This document shows positions 3,580 to 60,000 of a stretch of DNA of 64,000 bases, piece after piece. Both the position numbers and the translations under genes were made by a program. Where the stretch lies: positions 26,002,001 to 26,066,000 of the forward strand of contig CM049406.2 in assembly GCA_026929865.2 (NCBI GenBank), read 5' to 3'. The notes below the pieces were generated by a model. It had not been told where the DNA came from. It saw only the letters and a program-made list of their open reading frames with translations, and ran no database searches. Within the stretch, counting starts at the first letter, position 1, and each line of letters starts with the position of its first letter. The stretch is from Hyperoplus lanceolatus. Lineage: Eukaryota > Chordata > Actinopteri > Uranoscopiformes > Ammodytidae.

Positions 3580-6500
3580 CTTACCCCACAATCACTTCAT
3601 GGCCCTTCTGCAGCCCCAGGCCCTCCACTCTGAACACCACTCCTATCAGTGTGCGTGGCAGGGGGTTGGTGAAGGTGATCTTTGCTGCCATCTCCTTACC
3701 GACCACGGCTTCTCCCAAAGGCTGCCAGGAGGTCGTTCAAAATGAGTCACGAGGAGCAAACGAAAGACTTTCTTACAATAATTTTGCATGTGTGTGTGTG
3801 TGTGTGTGTATGATAATTACAAAAAAAGATAACTAGAAAATATGACAAACATGTCATTGGTAATGAGTCTATTCTTTTTGATAAATATAACTATATCAGA
3901 AATTAATCTAGAGACTAGGGATGAAGATAAAAGTTATATAAATGAAAGTACAAATTGGGGAGAAATTAAGTAAATTCTTCATTCTTCTCACTCTTTTTTC
4001 GACCATGTAAACTAAGTGTTGGACAGTTTATTTTTGCCTTGTGCTTGCTGTCAATGTAAACCTACCTCGATGTTGAGGTCAGGCGTGCGGAGCCTGAAGC
4101 TGGTCTGGTTGGCTAATACTTGTTGGGTCTCAGTGACTCTTCCGGACACGGTCAGCATCAGAGCAGCCTGGTCCACCAGCTCGTTCTGGTACTGTGGGTA
4201 CGGCAGCAGCCAATCAATGGTCTTCTCTGTGTGGAGAGGTACACGGAAAGGATGGAGCTCAGTATTTTCAGCATTTTGTACCACGCAAGCTTTACTTTCT
4301 TTTGCCATATCACCTTATTAGCTTAACAGACTGGAAACAGGGAAACAAAATGCCTCCGTCCAAAAGTAACTATTGAATTAGACCCATTTCATTGCTATTG
4401 CAAAAATGGTTTCCTCCACTGTGAATGGCTATAGCACAGTAGTTTTAGTCTTATCCTACTAGTATTGACTTCTCTCACACTTTTATTTGCTTAATAGAAA
4501 AAGCTCCCCTGGCTGTTCCAGTGAATAACATTGCATTGAGACACATTGTCTTCCCTTACAAATCTATCATCAAGAAATAAAAACCTGTTCTTAATTCAAT
4601 ATTCTCAGATGTTTTGCTGCCGCTTGAAGTGGTGTTTTGAATCAAATCTCTGGTCTAGCTATAGCTACTAAATACTACACTACCAGTGATCACTAGCTAG
4701 CTGGTCATTTCTTTCTTTAGCTTTCCTGTGTGATTCTGGACTGAGGGAAAGTCGCGTGCTCTGTGTGTGTTCGTCAATATAAGCAACCTCTTTCACAAAC
4801 ATGGGGCCATTTAATTCATTGTTAAAAAAATGTAATAAAACAAAAAACAAAAAAACCTGTTGACTATAGCTGCTTTTAAGAATGTCATTTCAAGCCAACC
4901 TTCATTGGGCAGGAGCTCCACCTCAATGCGTTCCTTCTTGATGGTGCCCTTCAGCACACCGGTGTAGTACATGACGGCCACCTGGCTGTGCAGAGTGGTG
5001 CGACGGGGCTCCGAGCTCTGGTTCTTCACCAGGATACTGAGCTTGGCGTCAGCCCCCATCCTGGGCCCCTCGCCGTCCATCTTCACCTCCATGAGCACGT
5101 CCTCCGCCATGGCCATGGAGTAGGCCTCTGGCTTGCTGCCATAACGACTGGCGGTCTCCACGGCGATGCGTTCTTCTTCAGTACCTGATAAAGAGGTGGG
5201 AGAGGGAGAAGTGTGAGTGCGCCTCGTTCTGTTTGATGCATGGGCTCGGGATGTATTGACAGAGTACGGAACCCGGTCCAAACAAAGCAAAGATAGAGCC
5301 ACATTTCTTTTTAAATTGCGAAAGGTTGAAGGGGTCATATGACGATAATCTACCTACAGCAAAATGAGCTACGCGGCTAGAAATGATTAAATCATCGCAT
5401 TTCACAATCATTCCAGACAGTGCATAAATAATTCTGTTGGTATCTTGAACATCAATCTGAGGTAGAAATGCAACTGATTGAAAACAAATCTACCGTACCT
5501 TCTTGGTGTTTGTACAGGTGCGTGATGTCGGCCCGCTCCTCAGAGCCCACTGCCTTGGTGCTGATGCAGTGGCCCACTGCTTTCTTCTCACTGTGGACCT
5601 GGCTGAAAGTATTGTCCGGGTTCCTCTGCCAGTATATTTTATCACTGTTGACCTGATAGAAAAGTACAGAGAAACCTGTTCAGTTGAAGCATCAGAGTAC
5701 ATAAGAATGTACTATAGCTTTCCTAAAGATGACTAAGTTAAAAGGTGGAGTCAGTGATTCTGGAGAACGCTTGTTGACAGAAATCACTTTGTCAAAATCT
5801 GTGAATTTCTCCTCAAGATCTACAACCTGTCTGTAATGTGTTTGTGCTGAAAACAAATCTGGTGTTAATACTCAGCCTATACTCTGCATACTCATTGTGT
5901 AAACAAAGGCCCCCACCGTATAGCTACCCAAGAAAGTAGTCCCTATTTTTGCAAATAGTTATTCCAACTCCAGGTAACAACTTTTTAAATCCTGCTGTAT
6001 ACCAAATGAGGATATCTCTGTTCAAGTACACTTTTGTATTTTTTTTTTTGGCACTCACCTCAGCAAAGACAAATGGCGTGTCGTGTTTGAGGAAGACCTG
6101 TCCAGAGCGGATGGCATTTACGGAGGCTGGGCCACAGCGGAAGGTTCCCTGGCTGGTTTCCTGTGGAGTGGAGTCCACCGCCTGCCAGCCTCCATGACCG
6201 GGGGGGAGGTCTGGTCTGGCCATCCAGCAGTCATTCCATACATGGAAGTTCCTGCATGCAATTAAAAGCTATGTCAATTTGAGGTCCAATTTGAGGTGCC
6301 AAGGAATAGTTTGACATTTGAAGGAAATAAGCTTCTTCTTCTTTTTTTGCCAAGAATGACATAGTTTATCTTAGCATAAATATGTTATGGATATAGGGGG
6401 AAACAGCAAGCTTGGCTCTTTCAATGCTTTTGTAATAAGTGAACTTTAGATGTGTTGATGACTGGATTTTGTTTTTGGATTTTGATTTAGCTTCATTTAA

Positions 6501-11064: not shown

Positions 11065-14000
11065 CCTTGTACTTTTATCTATGTGAGGACACCCAGTGAC
11101 CTAATGCATTCCATAGCCCCTCACCCTAAACTAAACCATGATAACTAAATGCCTTACCCCAAACCCTCACACTAACCCTAACATAAGCAAAATTCTAAAT
11201 CTTACTGGGACCTTAAGACATAGTTTCAACCCTCAAACAGGCCTTTAGAGAAGCAGGAAAAATGTCCACACTTTCCAAAAATGTCCTCACTCCGATGGTT
11301 ATATGCCATGGTCCCCGAAAAGACGTCTATACAAGTATATACACACACACACACATACACACACACAGGAGGATATGAAGGAGGAGGAGGCCAGAATACA
11401 GAGCAACGGGGCGATGGATTGAGGACGGGGTCAGCATGGGAGAGGCATATAAAGGCAGGAAACACACATGGAAGCAGTCAAAGGACAGGTTGTCACCAGC
11501 TGCAGGATTACTCTGAGCTCAGTCCCATGGCGTTTTTTCATACAGTAATAGTGGGATTTGGACTTTTATGAGCGTGAGGAAGAGATTGGTTTTGGGAAGA
11601 AGAGCACAGAGGAGATTGGGCTCTGTGCCAAAAACAGCAACCCTATAATCAAAGACAGCTGTCAGTTTTTTTTTTTTTTTTATCAAATCCAGGTCCACAT
11701 ATTTTTTGTCGAAAATGCATGTGGGGACGTTTTACAGTGCTCAGCAAACTGAAGTATGCAGAATAAACAATGGACCTAATTTCCTGACATTATATTATGT
11801 AACTGCATAAGAGAATGTAACTAAATGCATTAAAAATATAGACTGATAAATCCCACAAAGGCCTTGAATAAGTTTATGAGCAAACCTTTTTCAACCATTT
11901 CTGAAGGGAAAAAAACAAGATTGAGCTATTATCTGTGACCATTTGAAAAAAAAGCACATCAAAAGTGTTTGATTTAGGCATCAGCAAAGCTGTAACATCA
12001 TATATCTGTATGCACAAACGTTTCATAAATTAGGCCAATGGAGTTGTATTTCATCTTACACAATGTTTTGGTTCACAGGCATGGTTTAACGTGGTGCATA
12101 GGTGGCATAAGCCAGTGTGGCAGGCAGCAGCCTTGATTCATAGCCAGTTACATAACTCCCATACTTACCCACAGGGTCACACTGTAGCTATTTGATGGAC
12201 AGCAACACGCTCTGAGTTAGAGTTGGACTTTCTCACCAATGTGAAACAGTATATCAGGATTCCTCACAGAGATTAAACCAGTCAGAGGAAACGACATCTG
12301 CTTTTGCGCCTGTATTTGCCAGTATAACAAAATAAGGGGGGGAAAAACACTTATATGTTCTGCGTATACACTTTGACTGCTTATAATGCAGTATCAAACA
12401 GCTCTCCTGCAAGCAAAATGTCGAAGGTTTTCCACCTCAAATACAATAATTGGCCAGATCATTCCAGGCATGTTATATAACTCTTTTTTTTTCTTTCTCC
12501 TTCATGTTTCCCTTCTTATCACCTAGGACACCGCTTCTTTCCTTCCTCTCCTGCCAAATTCCTGCCCTTGGATCTATGCAAAGGAAACCCTGTGCCCCCA
12601 TTCCTCTGGCCACGCCCCTACTGTCAATCTTACCTGCACACCAAGGGTTGAAGAGCATGACGATGTGTTTGCTGGAGTTGTAAGTGGTCTTCTCGCCCTT
12701 TGAAGACTGTGTTGTCACGTTGAGCCCGTACAGGCCTATCACAGCAGTGGCTGGAGAGTTGACGGACAGCTTGATCTTGTTGCCAGTCTGCTCTACCATC
12801 TTGGCCTCCCAGCGTTTCTCCTGGAGGTCATCCACCAGTGGAATGATGACGTGGGTGCCTTTGGCCACGGTGGGCAGGGAACCTACAACACAACACGGGT
12901 TATACGTTTGAGTTATGGTGTACCTACAATGCTCCAATAAAGATGAAATAATAATGTAATACTTTCATACAATTCTCATGAAGTGATGTATGTGCAGATC
13001 ATGGTATACTCTCAGGTGCAAATGTCTACCTCATTAAAGGAACAGTTTAACATTTTGTGAAATATGCGTATTGACTTTTTTCTTTGAGATTTAGGTAAAA
13101 GTTAGGTAAAATAGGATGTAAAGTATTTTAGAAAACCCTACCAGCACCTCTGAAACTCACTAATTGATAAGATGTATCTAGTTTCTTTAATCCGTTTGCT
13201 TTGAGTCTTTGTGCTACGCTAAGCTTATGGACTGGCCGTAGCTTCACTTGTAATTTTGGATGGATGCATAAGCGGCATTGATATTTTCATCTAACTCTGC
13301 TGGAAACGTGCAATGTGCATGTATATTACAGTAACTCCTACATTTTGTTTGTGTCAAAGGTAAAATGTATCTATTTACGTGAGGGGAGGACTTCATTGCA
13401 ACATGAAGTGGGAAACTTGATGGTTCACGCCATAGGACTAGTTTGTCTGCTCCCACAATGGATGACACAACCATAAAACAACTTTAGACCACATGCTGTA
13501 GGCCTAATGCACATGTGTCAAACTCAAGGCCCGCGGGCCCACGACACGTTTTGATCTGGCCCGCGGAACAATTCTTTTTAAAAAAAATTTAAAAAATCAT
13601 ATATTATTTTTTATTTCATGGAGCCTGTGCCATATCCGCACGTCGCATACGCTCCCAACTGTTAGGAAACTTACGTGGCTTACAGCTAGGAATGTCTGCT
13701 GAAAGTTCCACAGCTCAGGATTTAAAGCCATGAATTGATGAACTTGCATCTAAGAAGAGCTGTCAGTTTTCTGAGGGCTGTAAATGGGCCAATATATGTG
13801 GCTAAATAACATGCTAATATTGATGATTGATTGTGTCAAGTGTCTAAGGATTAACGCCAAAATGATCTGGTTTCTAACTTTTGCTTTAAGTTACAATATA
13901 GCCAATATAGCTTGGCATTTCATTACCAATGTAAAGTATCATAAATAGCTAACACTGGTGCTGCGTCATGATTCCTAAAAAAACAAAACATATGATATGT

Positions 14001-25898: not shown

Positions 25899-26862
25899 AT
25901 GTGCATGCTTTTTATGTGTATGTGCAAGACAATTTGCTGTGTGTGTGTTCATGCATTCCTAGAATAGGGCCTAAACAGCACCGTCCTTATATACAGTACA
26001 GTATGTATCTGCATAGTGTATATCTAAAAAGATGGATACATTGTGCTACAGGTGTTGTAACCAAAAACCACACTTCGAAGTAGATGTGGAGGGTTCATCG
26101 TTGAACCCCCTCGATTGGAAATCCCCTTTCTGTTTCAAACTGAGAAAACCTTTTTGCAAGATATTGAACTTCCTCTGCATAGTTTCAGTTCTCCTCTGTT
26201 AGTCACCGTACATAAAAAAAAAAACCCTCATGAGTACACACTGATTCTGACCTCTCATCCAATAAAAGTCCACACACAAATGTAAACCATCTGAAACATT
26301 ATAATCACAGGAAAATATTCATAAATGTAGGAGCTGGCCAGAGCATGTACTTGTCATTGTGTATGGTGGATTTCAGTAAAGAAAGCACCTTTTCAGTTAA
26401 AGAACAATAGCGTGAAGTCTCTTTAAATGTCTTTGTCATAGAGTCCAGGTATTCTAAAGTGCCAGCTACTCACGAGAGCAGACATACAGGGTGTGGATGA
26501 CTATAGCACTGGTATCTTTCACGGCTTGGCAGAAGTTCCCATGAAGTCATTGCTGATCACTGGAGATGATGAAAACAGTGATGCATAGCTAAACCTGTCT
26601 TTCTGTCGGTCAGGGAGTAATAGTTACATCACCGCAGCAACAACGTGACACACTAAGTTACAGTTTATTTGTCTGAGTCAACACCATTGTTATGGAGCGT
26701 ATCAATGTTACCAGGGCTAAATGGGATACTATGGGGGGGGGACCGAAGTCATTAGAATGTATCCTGTTGGTACGTCAAATACATGTAGGAAAGAAATCAC
26801 AGCTATTCATCCAAATAGCTCTCCATATATATTGCTTACATGTACTGTGTTAGTATTAACCG

Positions 26863-28700
26863 TTGAAGGAATTGAAAAAACCACTTACGCACATCTGTAA
26901 CTTATCATTTCAAACTGGTAAATTCCCCAAAAAAATTAAAATTGCAAAAGTCTTACCGCTGTACAAAACTGGAGACAAACACCACTTCACAAACTACAGA
27001 CCTGTTTCACTGCTTCCTCAATTTTCAAAAATTTTAGAAAAACTCTTTGCTATCAGATTTAACAATTTCATCAATAAACACAATTTACTAACTGACAGCC
27101 AATACGGCTTTAGACCCAACCGATCCACTTCATTAGCAGTCATTGAGCTAATTATATATTAGCTCAATGAATTAGATATCAAATTCCCTGGACCAAAAGA
27201 ATTATGCAGCCGGTGTTTTTATTGATCTCAAAAAAGCATTTGATACCATAAATCAGGACAGAATAATCAATTATTTAGAACGGTATGGTATCAGGGGGGT
27301 TGTATTAAACTGGCTGAGGAGCTATTTACAGAACAGGCAACAGTTTGTGAAGATGGGTGTACATAAAACTGTTCACACAATCTATCATAGATTATTTTAT
27401 TTATTTATTTATTTATTTTATTTTATTTATTTTTTATTTTTTTTTATTTATTTATTTTTAACATTATTTGAATAATTGTTTTTACTCACTTGTTCTGTCG
27501 GTTGCATGTTTTTTTTTTTTTTTTTTTCCATTTATATTGTCTGTTTTTATTTATGAGTACATGCGTATGTTTGTTTTATGTGATTGGTGTCGACCAATCA
27601 AGGGACAAAGGATGCAAATTAGCACTTGCTACAATCCTGTATATTTACATGTAAATGTCTATTAATATGCAATGTCCCTTTTAAATAAATAAACTTATAT
27701 GTCATCTTGTTTGGACATTGCCTGTGGGGTCCCCCAGGGGTCAGTATTAGGGCCAATTCTTTTTATTCTCTACATTAATGATATATGCAAAACATCAAAG
27801 ATTTTACAATTCGTGTTATTTGCAGATGACACTAATATTGTTGTTTGGAAATTGTAATTTAAATAATGACGTAAATGTTATGATTGACGGTGTTAATATT
27901 GAAAGAGTGTATGTAAATAAATTCCTCGGTGTGACAATAGACCATAAGCTCAGCTGGAAACCTCACATAAAACATGTTAAATCTAAGCTGTCACGAAGCA
28001 TCTTAGTCCTGTGTAAAGCAAAGCATTTATTGGATCAAAAATCATTGACTTTAAAATGTCATTGCATCTCAATTGGGGGTGTGAAACTGTGGAATGGGAT
28101 GAGCATGGAGCTAAAGCAATGTCCAAACATGATCCAGTTTAAAAAAAGGTTCAAAGCAATGATTTTCAAAAGGTACAGGGATGAGGGTGTGAAGTAAGAA
28201 GGAAATTATAATTATATGGATATATATACTGATTGTATAGATATGTATGTAGATATGGATATATTGATTGTTTATAATTATAAATATAGATATATGCATT
28301 GTATAAATATATAAAATATGAAAAGAATTATAAGTATATTAAGTTGTATGTATGTATGTATGTATAGTTCATAAATGGCAAATATAGTATCGCCAATTGT
28401 ACAGAAGAATATATGGATTAAGAGAAGCGAATATAATAAATATTTTTATTTTTTTAATTTAATAAATATTTTTTTTATTTTTTATTTTTTTACTATGGAA
28501 AAGGGGTAGGATTAGATAAGTGTATACTTCTTCCTGCTCCTTTTCAGGCATATCTCAGAAATACAGATAATTTGTTTTCTTTTATTTATTTATTTATTTA
28601 TTTTTTGTGAAAACATAATTTTTGTTTATTGTATTTCCATGCTTTTCATTTTGTTTTGTATCACTGATATGTCTGAAATAAATTGAATCAAATCAAATAA
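26863..28700 (+). pseudogene. Degenerate L2/CR1-like LINE reverse transcriptase
   Basis: This is a broken non-LTR retrotransposon. RT pieces appear in order: NYRPVSLLPQFSKILEK and SQYGFRPNRSTSLAVIEL (26863-27160), AGVFIDLKKAFDTI (motif A, about 27210), [14 protein letters not shown] (motif B, about 27720) and FADDT (motif C, about 27820). The C-terminal part is KFLGVTIDHKLSWKPHIKH and a last ORF to 28197. Stops, frameshifts and a deletion after FADDT inactivate it. It is 5' truncated, with no endonuclease domain, and its 3' end has ATCAAATCAAAT short-unit repeats as in L2. An AT-rich insertion (about 27390-27693) splits the RT domain. Confidence 0.85.
27390..27693 (+). mobile_element. AT-rich insertion inside the LINE reverse transcriptase
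   Basis: RT coding sequence stops near 27390 and resumes at about 27695 with [13 protein letters not shown]. Between them are a T-rich run and a 3' UTR-like segment ending TTTTAAATAAATAAAC. This suggests a second poly(A)-tailed retroelement tail inserted into the LINE. Confidence 0.5.
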
Positions 28701-33267: not shown

Positions 33268-34820
33268 CAGGGGTGTCAAACTCATTTTGGTTCGAGGGCC
33301 ACATACAGCCTCTCTGATCTCAAGTGGACTGGACCAGTAAAATAATGGCAAAATAACGTACATATGTCAACTCCAAATGTCTAGCTTTGTTTTTCAGTAA
33401 TATGCTTTATCACTCAGCCTACATATGTAACCTACATTATCACGGATCACAAGGGATCTCTGTACCCCCCAGGAAATATCTTAGTAAAGGTTGCTGCTGG
33501 CCATGGGAATAGGAGGTGCGGCGAGCAAAAATATTGGGGGTATTTTGCTCAAAGATTAGCCTGGCATTCCCAGACCTGCCACTAGGCGCTGGCAAATTAA
33601 ATGTGCTGCGCGTGTTGGTCTGGACACGCTCCGTTGAAGCTTTATCAAGAAAGCCAGAGATCTGGCGGGTGGTTTCAATTGGTTCTATCTAATATGGGCG
33701 CACCAGAGCCCTTTATATGGTACTCTGGGGCGGACGTAACCGGGTGACGACAGTGACGTGCATGCGACGTCGAAGCCGTGATAGTAAACATCAAAGATGG
33801 CTGCGGATATGTTGCGTGAATTTGAGACTGCTTTGGCCTCGACCCTTAACGATTTGGAAGACGGCACTCAAATCTTTCATTAGCAAGTAAGTGGAATGTT
33901 CTATTTTGTCGACCGACAACGGCAAACGTTTAATTTAACAGTTTAACAGCTGTTCGCTAAACGAAAGGGGCTTACATCGCTCTGATTGGTTGTAGTGCTA
34001 TCCAACTGCGTGCAGTGGCATTTGAAATGCACGAGTAGGAGCCGCCCCTTGAGTTGGAAATTACTATTGATCGTGGCCAGACCCTCTATCGTTCAAGATA
34101 TCTGGGTCTGGATTTCCAGGCTACTCAAAGATGCCAATATGCACTAATGAAATAAACAACTGTTTATTTGAATACACAAATACAACAGGCACTGACCTTA
34201 CAGTTGTCCAATTTTGTTTACTATATGTACAGGGAAACTTTTTGTGCAAACATGCAGACAGTACAAAATAAAATTAAATAAAAGTGCAACTTCTACTGTT
34301 TTGATTTATTTTTAAATACAGAGGTTATTGGTTGTTTTGAAATTTGTTTTCCCAATTTAAAACATAAAAATAAAGCAGCATGGAAAATTAGGAAATAAAT
34401 CTTGTAGGCCTACACTAGCATGCTCCTGCTCGTTTCGCGCGTGCAGAGCCGCGGACACATCGCGCTTGCTAGTACATTAATTGTTCAGCACTAAAAATAA
34501 AAATTGTTTTATTTATTTTTTATTTTTTTGGTTTTTACTTTGCCATAAAGCACTGGAGAAAATATTAATAGCGGTGAAGCAAGATTGCCATTTACCATTT
34601 CCCACGTTGCTAAAATGTGCTTTTTTTATTTTGGCTGCCCCCTAGCGGCTGGAGTGAGCATTTTGGTTATTTCTTTAAAAATTAATATCTCCTCACAGGA
34701 GTGGGCTAGAGACTTACTTTTTTTTTAAATGCTCATAAATGTGTGCTCTACAAGTCGCGGGTCGGAATAAATCATCTCGTGGGCCGCATTCGGCCCGCGG
34801 GCCGTATGTTTGACACAACT
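33268..34820. mobile_element. hAT/Charlie-like element interrupted by another transposon
   Basis: The left end CAGGGGTGTCAAACTCATTT then GGTTCGAGGGCCACATA, and the right end GGCCGCATTCGGCCCGCGGG then CCGTATGTTTGACACA, form the recognised GTGTCAAAC-type terminal pair. No transposase ORF survives. The right tip is decayed and no exact 8-bp duplication is found. A separate 567-bp element sits inside at 33557-34123. Confidence 0.7.
33557..34123 (+). mobile_element. TAGCCTGG-type element with 9-bp TSD, 567 bp
   Basis: Its ends are TAGCCTGG and CCAGGCTA, with CCAGACC/GGTCTGG just inside. CTCAAAGAT flanks it exactly on both sides (33548-33556, 34124-34132). Near the middle (33796) an ATG opens MAADMLREFETALASTLNDL, then stops after 28 codons next to a donor-like CAAGTAAGT. 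This looks like the first coding exon of a larger element whose interior is lost. A related element with its own 9-bp duplication is at 36667. Confidence 0.8.
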
Positions 34821-34963
34821 CCCAAAGCAAAGGCCCAACAGACAACTTTTATGGGTTATGAATTAAAACACACTTATTGCTAAAGAGATTATCCCTGTTA
34901 ACACTCTGATCATTGTGATTCAAGATCTGTGGGTGATTTACAATGGTGATGAAATGTGTCTGC

Positions 34964-34968
<5 letters not shown>

Positions 34969-35047
<79 letters not shown>

Positions 35048-35083
35048 CGTGCGTGCGTGTGTGTGTGTGTCTGTGTGTGTGAC
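34969..35083. repeat. (TG)n microsatellite
   Basis: About 115 bp of TG with a GTGC variant block near 35043-35060. Confidence 0.95.
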
Positions 35084-36139
35084 TCCTGCATTCTTAATCG
35101 ATTGCAGTGTTCAATGGCCACAGTTTGCCATGGGGGGAGAAGGGGGGCTGATTCACGCGCTGCAGTTGCTCAGGGATGAGCCCAAACAAAACCAAGACAC
35201 AGGAGCACACTGCTGTAAAAGAACAAGTGACCTATCTGTTTCCCTGCCTCTCTGCTCTGTATACCTCCTGTCCTCGCTATTAAAAAAAGAGAGTCTTGTG
35301 TGTTTCTCCTAAAAAGCAGAGCTGTTTTTGAAATGCATTACAATGTTTACTAAGAGCAGAAGCAGAATTGTTCATTTATTATACCATTTTCACGTTCATT
35401 TCATGTCCCACTGTGTATTCTATTCCAATTTGTATGCTCCCCTTCAGATAAATTGTATGCTATGGACAAAGCATTTTTAATTATGTTTCTAATATTGTTT
35501 TTGCAGCTCCATTTGAGCAATCCATGTTCACATGTCCCACAGTACCAAGAGTGTGCAGCCACACTTGCAGCTCTCTGAGGGGAATGTCATTAGTTTTAAG
35601 TATTCAGTCGTAAAAAGTAAATTACTATTTGAAATGTCGATTCAATGATGGCGAGAGATAAATCATCCTTAGGGAAGGGGGGCATGAATACCAAATTCAC
35701 TGGTAATCCATCTAAAAGTTTTGGAGATATTTCAGGTCAGAACAAAGTGGTGGAACATCTTGTAACCAGTGTGGATCTGATACATCACTTTTACCATCTT
35801 CCATCTCCATCATTACCTCTTGAGTGGACATTCAAAAAGCCCTACTAACCTCCTACTCATACTAATGTTGACGTCAATTTGAGTATGTTGTGGCTGTGTA
35901 TGTGAGTTTAGGTGAGAAATGCCCGGATGAGTACTTACTTCCGGGAAGATTTTGTGTATGGATCGATAGGTTACTTTTCCTATTCAACCGCCCCACAATG
36001 CATTGTGTCTTTTTCAAACGACACAGAAGTTTTTTCTTTCAAGTCCTTGATTGCTTCTGCATACTTCAGTGTAAACGTTCCGACAAACCTCGCATACACA
36101 ATCGTTCATTAAGTAGAGAGTATGTAGTACATGTTGAGT

Positions 36140-36180
36140 ATGTAGGAGGGAGGACTTTAGTAGGCCGTTTCGAACACAGC
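36140..36180. mobile_element. MITE terminus (GTTTCGAACACAGCC)
   Basis: GGCCGTTTCGAACACAGCC is a transposon-like right end related to the GTTCCAAATCACATACT group. The left end, perhaps near 35890, is unclear. Confidence 0.4.
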
Positions 36181-36666
36181 CATTGTGTGTTTACTCACAC
36201 TTTGTACATTCACCAAATAATATAAAATTCCACTTTCTTCTGACCTCACTGTTTACCTGTGGAAAGCATTATGTCATCTTGTATTTCCTTTCTCATCAGA
36301 AATGTCTGCATTCCAACTTCTTACGTTACAGGTCTCAAACATACTGTTGATTGCATCCGGGGGCATGTCACTTTTCAATTTGTATTGTTTGTTTGTATTT
36401 CTTAAAAATGATTTTCAAATGCTTTGGTATGGGGTAAAAAACTGTAACATAAACTGTAAATAACACAAAGTATGTGCCAACAACCTCCAAGCATGAAGGG
36501 GGAATACAGCCTGCATTCTATTATATGACAGTACAGGAAATAAATGACAGAAGGGAAATGAAAGAGTGCTGGGATTGATTCAGTCCAAACTGCTCTTGTG
36601 CTTGTTGGAACATCCGGTATTTGTCAACTATGAAATGAACATTTTTTTCACTCTGAGGGTATACTA

Positions 36667-37040
36667 TAGCCTGGCTCCGCCCGCCCGCCTACTTCCAGCC
36701 AAATTTTATTTTCCCTTCAGTAGTCAGTCTGGGTGTACAGCCCATTTCCCAGTTTTGCCGGAGATTCGACAGCCGGTCCAATCAGCGAACAGAGCGAGTG
36801 GCTGAGAACGATGACTTCGAAGTCGCGCTCCACTTTCAGTTGCCAGAAGCCGGCTCATGACACACGTGACGACCAAACGTTATGCGATTGGTTGGTTAAT
36901 CCAGAGTGGCACTGGGCAGATCCAATAGTTTTAAACTTTAACAGACACCCGCCTCCATGAGTGAACGTTTGCCAATTACAGCACTGCCAGACCTTCTGTA
37001 CAAATGAAATGAAGTACGATGGTCTGGTAGCACCAGGCTA
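36667..37040. mobile_element. TAGCCTGG-type element with 9-bp TSD, 374 bp
   Basis: It has the same ends as 33557-34123 (TAGCCTGG...CCAGGCTA, with GGTCTGG near the right end) and an exact 9-bp duplication, GGTATACTA (36658-36666, 37041-37049). The interior is shorter and lacks the ATG segment. Shared internal motifs include GATTGGTTG and CGAAGTCG/CGTCGAAG. Confidence 0.8.
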
Positions 37041-37718
37041 GGTATACTAGCACAGCAGAATCAAATTCTATAACCTCTCTCCGTTTTACTATAACTTATA
37101 ACCAATTAAAGAATGGCCTTATATGTTTCTACTGAATAAACAGCTGGCACCCACCAAGGTCCTTCTGTTTTGGACTTGTTTGAGGTCTTTCACACTTCAA
37201 ACGCTCAGATGCAGCCACCATTCACTGGTGTTACAGTGGGGTTGCATGTCTTTTTTTCGACTGATTCACATAGGCTACCTTGGGCTCCAGTCCTCACCTC
37301 ATTAGGAACCACCCACAGTGAGGTTTTGGGTGGTCAATCAATCCTTCTATACTAGCAGAGGGACCATGCTGCCCTCTGGTGGCTACAACCAAATCTATCC
37401 ATCTATATAGCTCTCTCATAGGGCATAATTAGCCTATGCAAGTAGTTCACGTCAGGTCACACTTCATTCAAAATAAATTCAATATTTAGATAAAATAAAC
37501 ATTTGGTCACGAAAACATAACCTAAAATGGAGAAGGCATGGGAAAAATAAGTGTAAATGTATACTCTTTGATTTCTTCGAATTATATGTTTAATAAATCC
37601 CCCTCCCCGTTCTTTAAAAAAAGATATTGTTTGAAATATATTGTATTGTTTTATGACAAGTTAGTTGTTGTTATTTTAATTTTATTCATAAAGTATGCTG
37701 CTTTTAATAATTAGTTAA

Positions 37719-41047: not shown

Positions 41048-42917
41048 ATGCTGGCCAAACCAGAGGAAAGGAAGGCAGAGAGAGGGGAGGTGAAGAAGAG
41101 GAGGCACGGAGGAGAAGATGGAGCAGAAGGAGGAGGAGAGAGGAAGAGGAGGGGAGGGAATGACGGAGGAGAAGGAGGCCAAAGGAAGCGTCCGGAACGT
41201 CTGGATGCCATGAGCGTGGGCTACTTCCGCCGAGTCGGGGAGACACTCAGTGAAGGCTTTGAAGAAAATGAGGAGAGAGGTGAGGAGGAGTATTATTTTA
41301 CTGGAGATGTCATGTGATCAGGCAGAGTGCACTGGCATTCAGTTCAAGTTGGAAATATGCAGAATTAAGGGGACATTACACAACTCTGGTACACCATCAT
41401 AGTACAGTAGAACAAGAATCTTTGCTGATTCTAATTCAAGTTCTTTGGATAATACAAGCTATCAGAAAATGTCACGTTGAGTTTTGAGGGAAACTGTGAC
41501 GGAGAGTGTTCTTCTGACATATAACCGGTAGGGATACAAATATTTGAATAAAATTATTGGAAGATAATTGATAATTAAAAACAATGGGTTTGTTGTGGTG
41601 AAATATCAGTGTCTACTTTCAACTGTAGCCCCTTTGTTTTAGTTTCTCGCCTAACACTACATTTTACAATATAACATAAAACCAATCAGTTTGACGTAAC
41701 CTTGGCCCAATACACATTTGTACTCAACAGCACTTGAACACATCACAATGTTACTCTCATAAATAAAGGTAGGGTTAAATTTACCAGTTTATTATAGTGC
41801 ACATGTTAAATTTTAATTTTTCTTTCTTGTCATATTTTCTCTTACAGAGATGTTTGTGGAGAATGTCCTGACAGAAGTGAGAGGCAAAGCGGCCTTGGTA
41901 GCCACGGACATGACGGGCAGCATCACTCTACAGAAGCTGCTCTCTCAGGCCAGTCTGGACCAGGCAGCGGCGGTGATGGAGGAAGTGGGGGGAGAGTCAG
42001 GGGAGGGCTTTAAGACGGTTTCTTGTGACCGCTGTGGTGGACACGTAGTGGAGAGCGCAGTCAGACAGATGTCCAAGTGGACCGGTAAGACCCTTGTGTT
42101 TCGCATCTCAATTATTCAATCAATAACCCTTTTATTCAACGAGATAACAACTTGTTTTGAGTTTAAAATCTATTTTCTAAGAATGACTTGGCAAAGAAAG
42201 CAGAACTATAATAAATGTATAAGTAAGTCAACACAACCTACACAGTCACATACAATTTTCACAAGATCAGGGACAAGAATACAAAAGTTAAAAGTGACTG
42301 ACTACACAGCTAAAAGGAAAAAAATAAATCAACCTGGACAGATAAAATGAATAAAACTGGAAGTTTTCACAAAGATATACCTTTACAAACAATTGAAATG
42401 ACAGTGAGAGAACTATCTTCTCTGTCCTTTAACATTCAACAAAGCTTTAAATTCCAACGCACTAACATCTGTAGAACATTCTGAGAGTGCAAGCCATAAT
42501 GACTTCTGCTTGTAGTCATGTAAACTCATGAATAAGGGACCCGCCCAAGGAGAGACTTATAAATTAAAACCCAACCAATATGTAATTCTGCGAGCAAGAG
42601 AAAGATTTTAGCAGTGGCATTGAGGGTACTTCTGAGTGGCCATCTGCTCATCACCGTATGAAACAAATGTCTGAGTATCAACAGCTGTGCGCGTCTCTCT
42701 CTCTATTTAGATACACCGCAGAAGGCGCCGTCTGACACCACAGAAGAAGAGGAGGAGACGTGTGGGCTGCTGGAGGCCCAGGTGTTGTATCTGAGCCAGG
42801 CGGTGAGGGAGAACACAGCCCAGTTCATCACACACGCTCACGGATCTCACGTGGTGCGCACACTCCTACACGTGCTGGCAGGGTGCATCGGACCGCCACG
42901 CACTGAGGCCAGACCAG

Positions 42918-42991
<74 letters not shown>

Positions 42992-45900
42992 GGGGGAAAG
43001 ACAGGTTTTATCCTCTTGTCTCTCCAATTATCATTCTTTATGTTACAATGATTTGGTACGTAAGTATCGTCTAAATTGTTATCTTTTCAGGGCATGTAAA
43101 GAGGAAGTATGAAGTATAATGCCATATAGCTGTGGACTACAACTCAATGCCTGTTTTTCCTTGTCTATACTTGTTTGTTTTGGCACCATTAAAGGTACAC
43201 AATTTGTCTTGTTTTTTCAACATTAATATGTGTCTAGATACTCTAAACGCCTGAAAAAAAAACAACCCCTCTCTCTTTTTCTCCACCCTTCTGAGAAGCT
43301 GTGTTCAAAAACCCCAGTCAGATCTTTCTCCCCTTATGATGTCAGAGGGGGAGAATCCACGCCCCCTCATTGCCAACCTAACTCTGCACCACCCCCACCT
43401 GTGATTAGCACACCCCCTAGGTGCCCCTGAATCTAACTGGCAGTTAGATCCAGGGCCAATTAGAGCAGACTGGGCTTTTTGGAAGGCAGGGCTTAAAGAT
43501 TCAGGCTCTTTTAATGGGGCGTTTCAGACAGAGGCTGAGCAGAGGAGATTCAACAATGGCCCTGTGAGAAATATAAAGGGTTTTTTGGACACTAAAACTG
43601 TTTTTTTTGTAGAAACCCAAATTACAATTCTATACCTGAAAATTGCTTAATTAGCAATTCCTGTTCCTAATATACAAATGGATGTCCAGACAACTACTAC
43701 TGTTTTGCTTTGATACTGAAGAAAAATTCATGTTGGAGATGCTGATATCCCAAGAAAATCTCTGTTGCACTGAATCTAAGAATATGTGTGTCATGTGTAT
43801 CGTGTCTGTGTGTGACTTGGACTCCAATAAAGAGTAGGATTTGTGAGGCAAACTATGGCCATCAGTTTCACAGCCACTGCTGCAGCTGTGTTGTTGAATG
43901 TCTGTTACCCTGTGTCGACCTTTACAAGACAGAGAGAGAGCATTCTCTGAGTTGAAAATGGTTATTATTATTTTGTCAACAAGAAAACGCGTTGCATCTG
44001 TTGTCTCTTGTCTGTCAGCACCTCCACAGACAGACGCTTGCTGCTTGAAGCTTGTGTTCATTTCTTTCCATTGTCTTCTTTTTATTCTTGCTTTTTTTCT
44101 TTCTTTCTAGGGGCAAAAGATCGCAACGTAGCCCCTCAGCTGACAGACTTTGAGATCCCCTCTTCGTTTTGGTACGAGCTGAAAAGCCTGACGGACGCCT
44201 TGATGGACAGCGTGAATCGTGAGTCATCTTTTCCTCTAAACACACGGGCACTTTTGTGTCTTCGCCATTTTCTGCTGCCAGAGCAAAGACGGCTTGTAAT
44301 ATGGTCAGCCCTCATCACACAGGGAACGTTCTAGCACACGCCTGTATTCATAACATTTAATAAATCGATCATTCCTTTGGTTAGTATACCTCTTTCTGTA
44401 CGGCTGTAGTTAGGAAGAAAACAATTAAAAAAGAAAAGCATGTCCCATCCAGCCGCGGCGCTACTAATGGGCCCGGGTGGGCCCAGGCCCACCCATTTTA
44501 GGCTGGGCCCACCCATCCTAGCTGTTCATCCAATCAGCGGCTTCTACCCCACGTGTGGCGCCTGCCGCCAGGCTGAGTCCCGGACTCCCGCCTCAGAGCC
44601 GCCTCTGACCAATCATGAGTTAGCAACGGTAACTAAGAGGGAGACGCCGGACAAGCAGAGCGATTTGGCAAGCTTTACGATGCTTTATGACAAAATCTAT
44701 GACAATGGCCAAGCAAAGCAGTTTATTTTCTTTTAAATTTACTAAGAAACACTCCGAGGAGCAAGAGGAGGAAACTCCTGCCTCTTCAAATGAGTTACCA
44801 TCCAGTTGGGCAGCTCTCCCCCCATCACCTCCCGTAGTCACCCCCTCTCACCGGCAGCAAGGCAAGTAGCCTAACAGTCTAACTTAACGTTAATGCAATC
44901 TGATCTCACAGACATCAGTGGGATTTCTGATATCAGGTTGCATTAACGTTAGTGTCTGGCTGTCTGTATGTACATTTTCTGGAGGGAAAAATAATATTGG
45001 CAGTAAGTTAACTTATGATAGCGCTTTATGTGTTATAGGAGACAGGGTTCAGCAGCATAGAACAGCTTAAAAGAAAGGCCAACAAGACAAACGAGAAAAA
45101 AGAAACACTCATAGAGGTGCTGGACGCATGCCCCCGTGATATCTTCCCCAACATGAATAGTCTCCTGCGGGCCGTCCTCACATTGCCCATGACGACCTGC
45201 TCTGTGGAAAGACTCTTTTCTGCTGTCAATAGAATAAAAACAGGCACCAGATCGACGATGTTGACAGACAGATTAAATGCGTTATCCCTGCTTTCATTTG
45301 AGAGGGAATTAACTGATTCACTGCAACACGAAGAAATTCTTGCTGTGTTCAGCACGAAACCCCGCCGTCTCCTATTGTAACAAGCCCACAAGCAAACTTG
45401 AATTGAGTTCATGTGTGATCAGCTATCGGACTGTTATCTTGTTGTTTCTATGGTTAGATGTTATTAATTTGATTACTCTGGAGAAATAAGCTACAGCAAA
45501 ATTCATTTGGGACCGTTTCCCTGCTGTTTTTGAGTTTTTTCCATGTTATTTCATATGTGTTTCTGATCTGAATAAGAATAGAATGAATTAAGAATAAATG
45601 GAGAGAGAAACAGACCCTCACCCTCCAAAGATATAATTCCGTTACAGTCTTTTTGTGCATTGAACGTTCAAGAGAGATATGAAGTTAGGCTTATTGCCAA
45701 GTCTTTGTCCGCTTCAGCACTGAGCTGAGGACAGCGACGGAAGAGCCACATAGGTATTAGTCGCTGTCCTCAGCGCCGCAGAAAAGTGCTGAAACGGAGA
45801 TGACGATGATGACGCTGTGTTTTTTTTTTTTTTTTTTGTCTTATTTTAACTGGCCCATCCAGTTTTCTGAAGGCCCACCCATAATCAAAATCCTGGCGCC

Positions 45901-48900: not shown

Positions 48901-51900
48901 TCTTCCTCAAGGACCAGGCCTGCAGTCGCCTCATCGAGACCGTCATACAGCTTTCCCACAAGCCCCTGCTCCGAGACCTCTACAAGAACCACTTCAGGGG
49001 TCAGCTGGTGGACCTGGCCCTACACAACATCGCCAACTTCCCCGTACAGAGGCTGACCGCAGCCGTGGCCAAATTCAAGATGGTTGGTCGTCATATCTAT
49101 ACGTCATGTGTTTGAGAGATAGAGGATTTTTGAAAAATGTATGGATGACTCTGATTTAACTGTCTTTCCTCCGCAGTTCCCGAAGTTGTTTGACGAGCTG
49201 ATCCAGGGCATGGAGGCCATCTTGGCGGCGGGTCACATGGGCGTGATCGTCCAGCTGGCAGAGAGCTGCGCAGAGAGCGGAGAGAAGCAGACAGACATGA
49301 TGCAGAGTCTCATGCAGGTGAGCATCGTCAGAGAAATGTTGTTATTGAGATGTTACGGTCCTCAGAACGGATTCTGGAGAATGCTTAAATCAAGTCTAAA
49401 TCACTTTTTGTTAAAAACAGTGGCCACCTTAGCTAGCAACATGCCCATTTACAGCGTCTAGGCTGTGTATTAACACTGGATTTTTTTTTTCCAGCGCACA
49501 CACAGTATGGACAGGTAGCAGATCGTGAGGAGATATTCACTGATTTTGAAAAAGTGATTTAGCTGACTCCACATTTTTAATCAATAAAACAATACCCTTG
49601 TTTCTATTCATGTGTCTTATTTATAGCTGAAATCAAAGGTGTTTAACACCAATAAACCTACCTGATTGTCGATATGTTGCCCCTCCCCCCCCTCCAGGCG
49701 TTCCACTGCGCCGAGCCCGGCTCTCGACAGGTCAGCTGCCTCCCTCTCTTCATGTCCCTGCTCACCTACGAGGTGTACTACCACACAGACACAGCAGAGG
49801 GCGCCACACAGACAGAGGTGAGCAAACCCAGAGATGTACAGTAGTGGCCAAAAGTTTTGAGAATGACACAAATATTAAATTTTCACAGGGTCTGCTGCTT
49901 CAGGGTTTTTAGGTGTTTTTGTCAGATGTGTCTATGGTATACTGAAATATAATTACAAACATTTCATAAGTATCAAAAGCTTTAATGACAATTACACTGA
50001 GTTCATGCAACAAGTCAATATTTGCAGTGTTGACCCTTCTTTTTCAAGACCTCTGCAATTCTCCCTGGCATGCGGTCAATCAACTTCTGGACCAAATCCT
50101 GATTGATGGCAGTCCATTCTTGCATAATCAATGCTTTGAGTTTGTCAGAATTTGTGGGTTGTTGTTTGTCCACCCGCCTCTTGAGGATTGACCACAAGTT
50201 CTCAATGGGATTAAGATCTGGGGAGTTTCCTGGCCATGGACCCAAAATCTTTATGGTCTGTTCCCCGAGCCATTTAGTTATTACTTTTGCTTTATGGAAA
50301 GGTGCTCCATCATGCTGGAAAAGGCATTGTTCATCACCAAACTTCTCTTGGATGGTTGGGAGAAGTTGCTCTCGGAGGACGTTCTGGTACCATTCTTTAT
50401 TCATGGCTGTGTTTTGAGGCAAGATTGTGAAGAGAGCCCACTCCCTTGACTGAGAAGAAACCCCACACATGAATGGTCTCAGGATGCTTTACTGTTGGCA
50501 CGAGACAGGACTGATGGTAGCACTCACCTCGTCTTCTCCAAACAAGCTTTTTTCCAGATGCCCCAAACAATCGGAAAGGGGATTCATCAGAGAAAATGAC
50601 TTAACCCCAGTCCTCAGCAGTCCAATCTCTGTACCTTTTGCAGAATATCAGTCTGTCCCGATGTTTTTTTCTGGAGAGAAGTGGCTTCTTTGCTGCCCTT
50701 CTTGACACCAGGCCTTCCTCCAAAAGTCTTCGCCTCACTGTGCGTGCAGATGCACTCTCACCTGCCTGCTGCCATTCCTGAACAAGCTCTGCACTGGTGG
50801 TGGCCTGATCCGGCAGCTGAATCAACTTTAGGAGACGGTCCTGGCGCTTGCTGGACTTTCATAGGCGCCCTGGAGCCTGTTTGGCAACAATTGAACCTTT
50901 CTCCTTGAAGTTCTTGATTAAATTAATTTCCAAGGCAAAGAGGGACTTTGCAATTAATTGCAGTTGAGCTGATCACTCCTCATTACATTCTGGAGTATAT
51001 GCAAATTGCCATTATAAAAACTGAAGCAGCAGACTTTGTGAAAATTAATATTTGTGACATTCTCAAAACTTTTGGCCACGACTGTATACAGCCAAATCAC
51101 TTGTCGGGCTTTTAACTGTCGTCTTGACATTTCAGTTTAGCACAAAAGCTGACGACAGTTAAAAGTCTACACTCCTTTGCTGAATAAATGTTGCAGGTGC
51201 CATGCTAGACCCTCTCTCTCTCTGATATTCCAGGTGCCGCTGACCTCCATCTGTTACCATGGCTCCCGGCTGGTGCAGGCTCTGTCCCGGTTCAAAGAGC
51301 GTAGCCTTCTCCTGAGCAGCCTGCGCACCCTGCCCCCCTCTGACCTGCTGACTTTGGCTTCTGACCCCGCAGGCAGCCATGTTCTGCAGCACCTCATCAC
51401 CACATCCAGCGACAAGGGCAGAGGCAAGATCCTGCACAGACTGGAGGTACAGATACAGGGCCATTCCAATACCCTTTACACCCCTAAATTAGGACTGAAT
51501 GCCGATTGCACACAGCAGACAAAAGCCGGATGTTAGCGGGTTTAAAAATGTGTTTTGGCCGATGTGATAGGGATTTAAGACTATTGTGGAATAGACAGTT
51601 AGTCATGTCACAAGATGATCATTTTTACTGTTAGCTGTAAGTATTTCTGTTTGCTGTTTAAAATCCTACTACTGACTGTCAACACACCCCATGACAAAAA
51701 AACAACAATGACTTTATTCTTCTAATAAACATTGTATGTACAGTATATCCAAAGGCTTGTAGTATATCTTATTCCTCTGTTCCATAGAGTTCAGTGAGCC
51801 ACCACAAAGACACAACGGTTGCGTTCCGAATCGCATACTCTTTCTTTTTTCTATTCTACATACTACATCCCACGATAAAAATAATCTAATTAGGATGCAG

Positions 51901-57000: not shown

Positions 57001-60000
57001 GGCGTGAGGTGGGAAGATATGTTGCTGTATTATATTGTACATGTTTTTCCTGCCGCAGAAAACCTCCAATGAGTTAACACAGACTTACTAACGAGAAAGA
57101 CTCAAGTCAGATTGTTACATCATTCTGTCTCTGCATTGCATTGGGTTTCATCATAAAGGTGTTCCTATTGTTGTGGCCATATAGTGGACAGTGACATGCC
57201 TGCTAGACAGACCCGGGGGAACAACTGGGAAACAGCATCTGTCATTGAAGAACATTTTTAAAGGATTAGTTTTCCAACTTTTTCCCTAAGATGCCCAAGT
57301 GTTAAGTGATATGCCACAACTTCAGTAGAGTGTAGGCTAAATAGAATTGTGTTTGCAGCGATCAAAGCAAGTATATTTTTTTAACGTTTATAATGCACTT
57401 ATGTGTAAGCATCACTATAGTTGCTAATGTGGAGCTTTATAACAACTATTTACTGCTGGGTAGTTACTAATACATAAGTCATCATTTATAAGTGTATTTA
57501 TATGTTGTGTTAATCTATCTGGTACAGTACAAGTAACTCAGACCTGCACTTCAGTACATTCCACCACTGTTTAAATCACATGCTTAATTGATTCATGATT
57601 CATGATGCAATGCATGAATCAACAATGTATTATATATTCCTATAGCAGATTTCATGTGATTGGTTGTTAAATGGATTACCAATTAATCATTGTTAACTCA
57701 TAGTAACCTCACATTTATTATTATTCCACCAAATTATTTGGGATCCAGTTACATAGAAATGGATCATTCAGACCGATGCCGCACCTGTTCTCAGAGAAAA
57801 ATAAAGCTTTTATTTTTTTAATCAAACTGATCATTCAATAGCAGACATCTACATTTCCTCTGGTGTGACACAGCTGGCAGCTTCAGGATGTTTTTAATTT
57901 GGTGGAATATAAATGAATGTCTGAAGACAGCAGCCGTTAAGCTTTAACGGATGAGATGAACTCTCAGCGATTTCTTAGTAATGAGCAGGTAGGCACATAT
58001 GGTATTTCTGAATGCATTTAATCATCATGATTGATACATTGGGTATGCACTACTTAAGTACCAGATATGTCACCTTCTAAAGGATTTGAAATTGCTATTC
58101 TGAACAGTTCTGATACTTTAGCCTCACCATAGCATGCCAAACCTGGGTCATCATTATTGCTTGGTAGCAGGGCTCGACCCTTTGTCAGTCTGTTCTCAAA
58201 CCCAGCTGCGGCCATATACAGCCTCTATGACCGCAACTTACTGCAAACTACTTGCCTCAAAACTTTGTTGTTTCAGAACTCAGTACTTTAGCTTGTAACT
58301 TAATATCTGTGGTATGTGGAAAGTTGAGTCCATCATCGCTGTTCATACTTGTATTTTTCTGATCCCAAGGCTTTTCCTCCGTATGCACCAGAACAAACTT
58401 TACATGTAGCTTTAGCTTTGTACAGATTAAAAAAAATTAGCTATAGCATGTTAATCATTCAGCTTTGGAGGTGATGCTAGGCAGATTTAACTACTTTTGT
58501 ACTGAGGCCAGGCTAGCTGTTTGCTCCATTTTCAGTATTTATGCTTAACTAAGCTAATTCTCCCAGAAAGCCATCAAGAATATTCCCCAAAAATGGGAAA
58601 CTATTCCTTTATAGACTGTGGCATTGAGTGTTTGCAAGGTGCAGAAATGTCTTTGCCGCTGCTTGGACTTTAAGACACTAGTTTTTACTTGATGCATTGA
58701 ACAGCATCCAACTCATTCCCCATAACATCCATGATGCAAGCTTATGTCGAGATCAATCCTAACCTCCTTTTCGGCATCTACTTACTTTGCCATGTTTTTC
58801 ATTACATTTGGTTAGCTCCGACCTTTTTACCTGTGATTATTCCACATTACTGGGATCGGAGGATAGCACTGCATGGGGGCAGCCTGCCCGTAATAGGGTT
58901 GATTGGTTCCTTGTCCTTCAACCCACTGCTATAATTTGTCTTGGACTGATATTTCACCGTGGGGTTCTCGCTTCGGCGTAACCAATTTTAAATAGAGGAT
59001 ACTCCATGCTGACATTCAATCTGAGACTGGTCTGGCTCATCCCTGCTACCTTTCTCATTGAGGCCGTTGATAATCAGCTTTGTGCACCCCTGAGACACAG
59101 CAGTGGTGACCTTTGGAGCAAAAAAAGAAAAAAGAAAAATCTCATGGATTCCTTTCAGGGACTTTAAGTCTTTAATGCCACTCAATGTCAGGCACCACAC
59201 CATTGCATGCCAGGCCAATCACTGTAGCCTGCCCATAACCCTGCATGGTCTACCCCCCAAAATGAACTAAACACAGACCAATGCCAGTGATACCTCCCAG
59301 CTAAAACGCCTACACCCCACACTTCAGGCAAATTACGCATCTCGTTAGTAATGCACAGATGCTCACTGAAAACTGTCTTCCTTTAGTGCAAAGTGCAGGG
59401 TAACTTCTGTAAGGCTTTCACAGACACACCATAGGTTTGTTTTCCTCTTTTTCTTCGTTTGTGCTCCCTTTGTCTTCCCTGCTCTCTTGTATTGTTTAGC
59501 CCCGGAAAACAACACAGTAAATAGCCCCACATAATGAGTCATCGCAGGCAAGACAGAGAGAGAGAGAGGGAGGGAGAATTTATGTCACGATTTTCGAGAC
59601 TGATAGGGTGTCACAAAAATAAAGTAAATTGAAGCATAGTGTCCTCATCTCCCGGTCGATTTCCTGTGGGCTTCTGTGCAGCTGTCAAACGCACGCTATT
59701 ATCTGACAGTTATCCGACCTGTTTGGGTGTGATAGCATCTTTTATTTGTCACATCCCGTTCGGCAGAGAAACATATTGTATAAAATCCAGCCTGTCCCTG
59801 TTGGTACAGTTCACCTTATCTGTGTGCTTATCTGTCTCTTATTTTAGAAAAAAAAGGACAGAGCCAATAGCAAAACTCCATCTTTCACGAAAATCTACGT
59901 AAATGTAGGACATTTGGAGATGCCAAAGGACTCTAGGACTCATCGTCTCCTTGACAACAGTCTCCAAGCAACCATTACTCCTCAAAGCATTTTTCTCCAA

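Follow-up and report, generated by a model that had tools for sequence, protein, structure and literature searches.

Two groups of miniature inverted-repeat transposons with 9-bp target duplications in the fish Hyperoplus lanceolatus, probable derivatives of a helicase-encoding AcademH element

We describe two short DNA transposons, e1 and e2, in a 64,000-nucleotide stretch of the genome of Hyperoplus lanceolatus (assembly GCA_026929865.2, contig CM049406.2, labelled C12 here, positions 26,002,001 to 26,066,000 of the forward strand), hereafter the window. We propose, at a probability of about two in three, that they stand for two families of miniature inverted-repeat transposable elements (MITEs) moved in trans, and that the parent of e1 encoded a helicase and was, most simply, an AcademH element of the Academ superfamily. 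Both elements have terminal inverted repeats (TIRs) and target-site duplications (TSDs), and e1 further carries a decayed piece of a helicase gene. Their features, in window coordinates, are the following.

33557-34123, plus strand (the direction of the helicase remnant): e1, a non-autonomous DNA transposon (MITE) of 567 bp, delimited by its ends, the TSD scan and its genome relatives
33548-33556, no strand: left 9-bp target duplication of e1, CTCAAAGAT, exact
34124-34132, no strand: right 9-bp target duplication of e1, CTCAAAGAT, exact
33557-33623, plus strand: left end code of e1, TAGCCTGG-N5-CCAGACC-N40-GGTCTGG, with the TIR at 33557-33564, the inverted site at 33570-33576 and the direct site at 33617-33623
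34077-34123, minus strand: right end of e1, same code, with the TIR at 34116-34123
33797-33880, plus strand: 28-codon open frame MAADMLREFETALASTLNDLEDGTQIFH, then TAG, overlapping the helicase start region
33822-33935, plus strand: decayed RecQ-type helicase stretch of e1, reading LRLLWPRPLTIWKTALKSFISK, stop, VECSILSTDNGKRLI; its homologue in old relatives is their motif I region
36667-37040, plus strand: e2, a MITE of 374 bp, delimited by its ends, the TSD scan and copies on contig C1
36658-36666, no strand: left 9-bp target duplication of e2, GGTATACTA, exact
37041-37049, no strand: right 9-bp target duplication of e2, GGTATACTA, exact
36987-37040, minus strand: right end code of e2, TAGCCTGG-N5-CCAGACC-N27-GGTCTGG, with the TIR at 37033-37040
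36667-36674, plus strand: left TIR of e2, TAGCCTGG, without the strict inner code, from the end word and the code scan

An earlier note on this DNA had reported the two elements with their coordinates, ends and perfect 9-bp repeats, all of which proved exact on re-examination. We searched the window for pairs of identical inverted ends, 100-3000 bp apart, with an exact direct repeat of 8 bp or more beside them; e1 and e2 were the sole matches, whether ends of at least 6, at least 7 or at least 8 bases were demanded. Forty shuffles of the window gave a mean of 0.1 matches (maximum 1) with ends of at least 8 bases and a mean of 1.25 (maximum 4) with ends of at least 6, so that the bare count of two at the latter setting is no evidence. 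The weight lies in the one 8-base end word and the 9-bp repeats that e1 and e2 have in common, which chance does not give. The inverted ends, TAGCCTGG and CCAGGCTA, are perfect over 8 bp on both elements, and those of e1 reach 20 bp at 85% identity. The word itself occurs five times in the window, against a shuffle mean of 1.41, a count reached in one of 100 shuffles; its fifth occurrence, at 58508-58515 on the minus strand, has neither partner nor duplication. Neither element contains a long coding frame. Their interiors are unrelated and their ends alone are common to both; hence, the earlier description of them as a family is loose, given that the genome copies also fall into two groups.

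Both ends of e1 and the right end of e2 display a stricter code, namely TAGCCTGG, 4-5 bases, an inverted CCAGACC, 21-40 bases and GGTCTGG, a form that the left end of e2 lacks. The strict code has three matches in the window and none in 100 window shuffles. Across the 806.7-Mb host assembly we counted 3313 + 3350 = 6663 matches, against 0 for the reversed control. The inner GGTCTGG is similar to an outer AGCCTGG, so that each end resembles a cluster of alternating sites, and we infer from this arrangement that these are putative binding sites. Among sequences outside the host, a 17-base end pattern hit three viral contigs, and the strict code hit one bacterial contig and no viral one; all of these are without a second TAGCCTGG end and are read as chance. 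An Rfam scan of the window gave no match.

The length of the TSD was measured on the first 30 end-code matches listed, a sample that is not random because all of these loci come from one contig (C1). Six loci without a perfect far TIR within reach (L007, L011, L020, L028, L030, L034) were dropped, and the remaining 24 represent 21 distinct elements, in each of which every duplication length was tested on its own. A 9-bp TSD is exact in 12 of the 21 and present with at most one mismatch in 17, while exact duplications of 4-8 or 10-14 bp are found in 0/21; with at most one mismatch allowed, one element of the 21 displays a 4-bp and one a 5-bp duplication. The length proposed in the earlier note was thus upheld in the copies examined. 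A predominance of 8-bp duplications, which it had named as the outcome that would speak against it, was looked for, and no element has one exactly. Its exclusion of hAT and of the Tc1, PIF and piggyBac types likewise stands.

These counts bear on the families with shorter or differently bounded duplications. P elements make 8-bp duplications. In what follows papers are cited by their PubMed Central (PMC) identifiers. Descent from Merlin, P or hAT elements appears very improbable: Merlin duplications of 8 or 9 bp would agree with those here, but Merlin termini begin 5'-GG (PMC8101967) and the present ones are of the form TA..TA, while hAT elements usually make 8 bp or, in some subgroups, 5, 6 or 7 bp (PMC12730594), none of which is exact in the sampled elements. 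The earlier note had also considered a MuDR-like or KDZ-type origin. The second of these (Zisupton, Dileera, Kyakuja) is scarcely credible, since Zisupton and Dileera make 8-bp and Kyakuja 7-bp duplications (PMC12730594) as against 9 bp here, even though these too are DNA transposons and Zisupton is known from fish, going by a title cited in PMC4455052. The MuDR half of that suggestion fits in its TSD of about 9 bp, but we found nothing further in its favour. The elements are short (most of those measured span 348-623 bp, with two at 830 and 1224 bp), the end code has thousands of matches, TIRs and TSDs are present, and e1 and e2 are free of long frames, all as expected of MITEs. From the prevalence of exact 9-bp and the lack of exact 8-bp duplications, we conclude that the e1/e2 group comprises MITEs that belong neither to hAT nor to KDZ.

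The search for a parent element began from the open frame of e1, which we presumed to be the beginning of a gene for a RecQ-like helicase such as occurs in fish genomes. A degenerate pattern for AVLPTG[FY]GK has three matches in the assembly and 0 in the reversed control; a plain 42-mer typed from the matching copies recovers two of those three along with a fourth place, again with 0 in the control. All four places (L051, L052, L053 and L054), which bear the helicase motif VFAVLPTGYGKS, lie in e1-like elements. Aligned to e1, they are 77% identical over 157 bp (L051), 73% over 414 bp (L052), 71% over 397 bp (L053; 179 bits, against at most 26.5 bits for 30 single-base shuffles) and 70% over 260 bp plus 76% over 104 bp (L054). 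The helicase frame of L054 reads LPRDLTIWTYEQKATLKSLISKEDVFAVLPTGYGKSLIYQ, and the decayed stretch of e1 retains 50% identity to it over 44 positions with stops taken as X (E 2e-9 for the one comparison). L053 spans 523 bp; its left limit, placed by eye, is TTCCCTGG, which departs from TAGCCTGG at two positions, and its right end is CCAGGCTA. It has AAAGAAATA on both sides, and of the lengths 4-14 bp only 9 bp gives an exact duplication, such that motif I here resides in an element with the same kind of TSD as e1.

Profile searches bear on the nature of this frame. Fragments of L052, L053 and L054 match the NCBIfam model TIGR00614 (recQ_fam) at 2.6e-5, 3.5e-6 and 1.9e-6, respectively, and the Pfam DEAD domain at 0.0079 (16.4 bits, under the cut-off of 26), 5.6e-6 (26.6 bits) and 8.8e-6 (26.0 bits). 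Against PDB, the L052 fragment retrieves 34 sequences at E of at most 1, of which 32 are helicases, nearly all of the RecQ family by name, and two are another protein. Soon after motif I, the sequence of e1, L051, L052 and L053 turns into the right-end region, and in L054 other insertions lie between the two. We therefore read e1 and L051-L054 as probable internal-deletion derivatives of something longer. Judged by eye, the apparently later insertions in L054 comprise a repeat with GCGCACCGGATTATAAGGCGCAC and some sequence that follows a long run of T; tRNA-like sequence of the short interspersed nuclear element kind in the e1-like loci L046 and L051 likewise looks to have been inserted later.

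Mutator-like elements (MULEs) capture genes. One could view e1 and e2 as MuDR/Mutator-like MITEs with 9-bp TSDs, in which the helicase stretch is a fragment of a host RecQ gene taken up in the manner of a Pack-MULE. The TSDs of IS256 and MuDR, at 4-10 bp (PMC10045372), would accommodate those seen here, and PMC4746887 reports MULE-MuDR elements from zebrafish, medaka and stickleback. However, the helicase stretch lies at a constant position with respect to the left region in the old relatives, which are about 70-73% identical to e1, as is expected of the start of an element's own gene. The perfect TIR is 8 bp here, against the long TIRs of most plant MULEs (PMC3310237), and no MULE transposase was seen, no assembly-wide transposase search having been made. 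We consider this origin unlikely, while giving it more credence than any of the other alternatives discussed in this article.

In an alignment of e1 with 10 copies (of 11 e1-like copies, L007 was left out), the 28-codon frame, which is situated near the middle of the e1 copies, is open in 10 of the 11 rows. On its own the 28-residue peptide has no match in PDB, Pfam or NCBIfam. Over the 11 rows, the 28 codons display 12 silent and 29 changing differences, with a ratio of changing to silent divergence (pN/pS) of 0.60, which is not decisive on selection. We had entertained the GTAAGT after this frame as a splice donor; this was dropped because the helicase stretch runs straight on in the fossil copies. 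A corresponding exon-1 pattern has 687 matches at up to one mismatch, and its two exact matches are ordinary MITEs.

The combination of a helicase with 9-bp duplications brings us to AcademH, a helicase-encoding lineage whose TSDs are 9 or 10 bp long, in contrast to the 3-4 bp of AcademX (PMC10045372). On account of this combination the e1 group is placed in AcademH as a probable member, and the e2 group is provisionally placed with it on account of the ends that it has in common with e1. The likeness is to the published description: the TSDs agree, and a helicase gene within the element may have its counterpart here in the motif I region of four fossil relatives, presumed to be the element's own. 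AcademH is found in animals and fungi by the title of its description (Kojima 2020, as cited), and Academ elements are reported in zebrafish, medaka and stickleback but not in tetraodon (PMC4746887). The differences are that only MITEs and fossils are seen here. Under the Repbase rule, non-autonomous elements are assigned to one superfamily when they have the same TSD length and 11 terminal bases with one mismatch (PMC4455052). Between e1 (TAGCCTGGCAT) and the e2 relative L032 (TAGCCTGGCAC), a single one of these bases differs.

Two further readings concern the helicase. A vertebrate lineage of helicase-encoding transposons apart from Academ, amounting to a separate superfamily with TA..TA ends, is possible but improbable, somewhat more so than MULE descent. 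The transposase of such a lineage would read three alternating sites per end, first TAGCCTGG in forward, then CCAGACC in inverted and last GGTCTGG in forward orientation, and would make a 9-base stagger; the lineage would have left one of this genome's larger MITE populations, its full-length copies having become rare or extinct. In the part of the open-licence PMC literature surveyed, we found neither a description of the e1/e2 end code nor one of AcademH MITEs from fish, and the former point agrees with a separate superfamily; parsimony speaks against it, as AcademH already joins a helicase with 9-10-bp TSDs (PMC10045372). Kolobok elements duplicate TTAA, and the duplications here are 9 bp of varied sequence. 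Thus, although KolobokH encodes a RecQ helicase, as the parent of the e1 group may have done, it has been found only in fungi (PMC9587614), and KolobokH MITEs are a negligible prospect.

Several observations weigh against an AcademH parent. The recQ_fam scores of 23-27 bits lie far below the whole-protein cut-off of 219.8, as the queries are fragments, and the best PDB match of the L052 fragment has an E of 0.023, none reaching 0.001. No 9-bp duplication is present at the decayed ends of L052. We saw no helicase beyond the motif I region in the e1 relatives, and a motif II pattern, built from recall and used without a positive control, has no match in the assembly. No helicase trace is seen in e2, whose link to e1 consists in its ends only, and the left ends of the two differ at 2 of 11 terminal bases, which is over the Repbase limit. 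The helicase piece could itself be a captured host gene. Membership in AcademH is put as probable because neither a full-length copy nor a transposase was seen in the copies examined, no search for a transposase having been made across the assembly. The long copy with a complete open frame that the earlier note had suggested seeking was not found in 13 regions of about 10 kb each beside seemingly unpaired ends: seven held an ordinary element of 538-830 bp, five no far end for the anchor and one a weak far end. A simple GxGKS pattern detected no helicase in any of them, and open frames were listed for six of the 13. In L038 (reverse complement), Tc1-like transposase frames were noticed by eye at about 1089-2200, some 0.9 kb inward of an e1-like left end.

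Nevertheless, we favor AcademH as the parent, and it suggests the following scenario. A cut-and-paste DDD/E transposase from a longer element would act in trans, excising and reinserting both MITE families; it would recognise the clustered short sites at their ends, TAGCCTGG followed by the inverted CCAGACC and then GGTCTGG, and cut the target with a 9-base stagger. The first family, that of e1, would have arisen by internal deletion from a larger element. The gene of that element would have begun some 240 bp inside the left end and encoded a RecQ-type helicase. Old relatives would retain motif I of this parental helicase, and e1 a decayed copy thereof. That the helicase was part of an autonomous element, that this element had an Academ-type transposase and that the same enzyme served e2 are our inferences.

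The genome copies examined fall into an e1 group and an e2 group. Members of the former are about 73-93% identical to e1 over the aligned parts and are mostly 538-623 bp long. The latter comprises the 374-bp form and longer forms of 555-619 bp with about 240 extra bp, which in L006, L012, L015, L018 and L031 contain repeated TTCCGAGTTCC-like motifs. Identity to e2 is 96.8-98.1% for five 374-bp copies from contig C1, and e2 and these five have a mean pairwise divergence of 2.3%, which makes the e2 type appear young. Repbase contains unclassified zebrafish DNA families that take their names from 9-bp TSDs, and the e1/e2 group may be among them.

Elsewhere, the window contains fragments of other mobile elements: the C-terminal part of a hAT transposase at 45039-45377 on the plus strand (Pfam Dimer_Tnp_hAT, 2.6e-9), a 157-codon piece of a Tc1/mariner-type DDE_3 transposase at 50018-50488 on the minus strand (2.2e-12) and a reverse transcriptase in two pieces at 26860-27472 on the plus strand (RVT_1; one piece at 1.6e-6, narrowly below the cut-off, the other at 4.2e-7, narrowly above it). 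Pieces of host genes at 4814-5353 (minus), 12476-12964 (minus) and 51153-51533 (plus) code for transglutaminase C- and N-terminal domains and a NOP9-like PUF repeat domain, with a weak PUF match at 41817-42347.

With its probable tie to a helicase-bearing parent, the e1 group need not be left unclassified, and it provides an entry point to the short orphan families of a vertebrate genome that have 9-bp duplications. In fungi AcademH is described as low-copy (PMC10799480), whereas the end code of its probable derivatives matches thousands of places in this fish. If confirmed with a transposase, this connection would let one test what the helicase adds to transposition and to the length of the target duplication.

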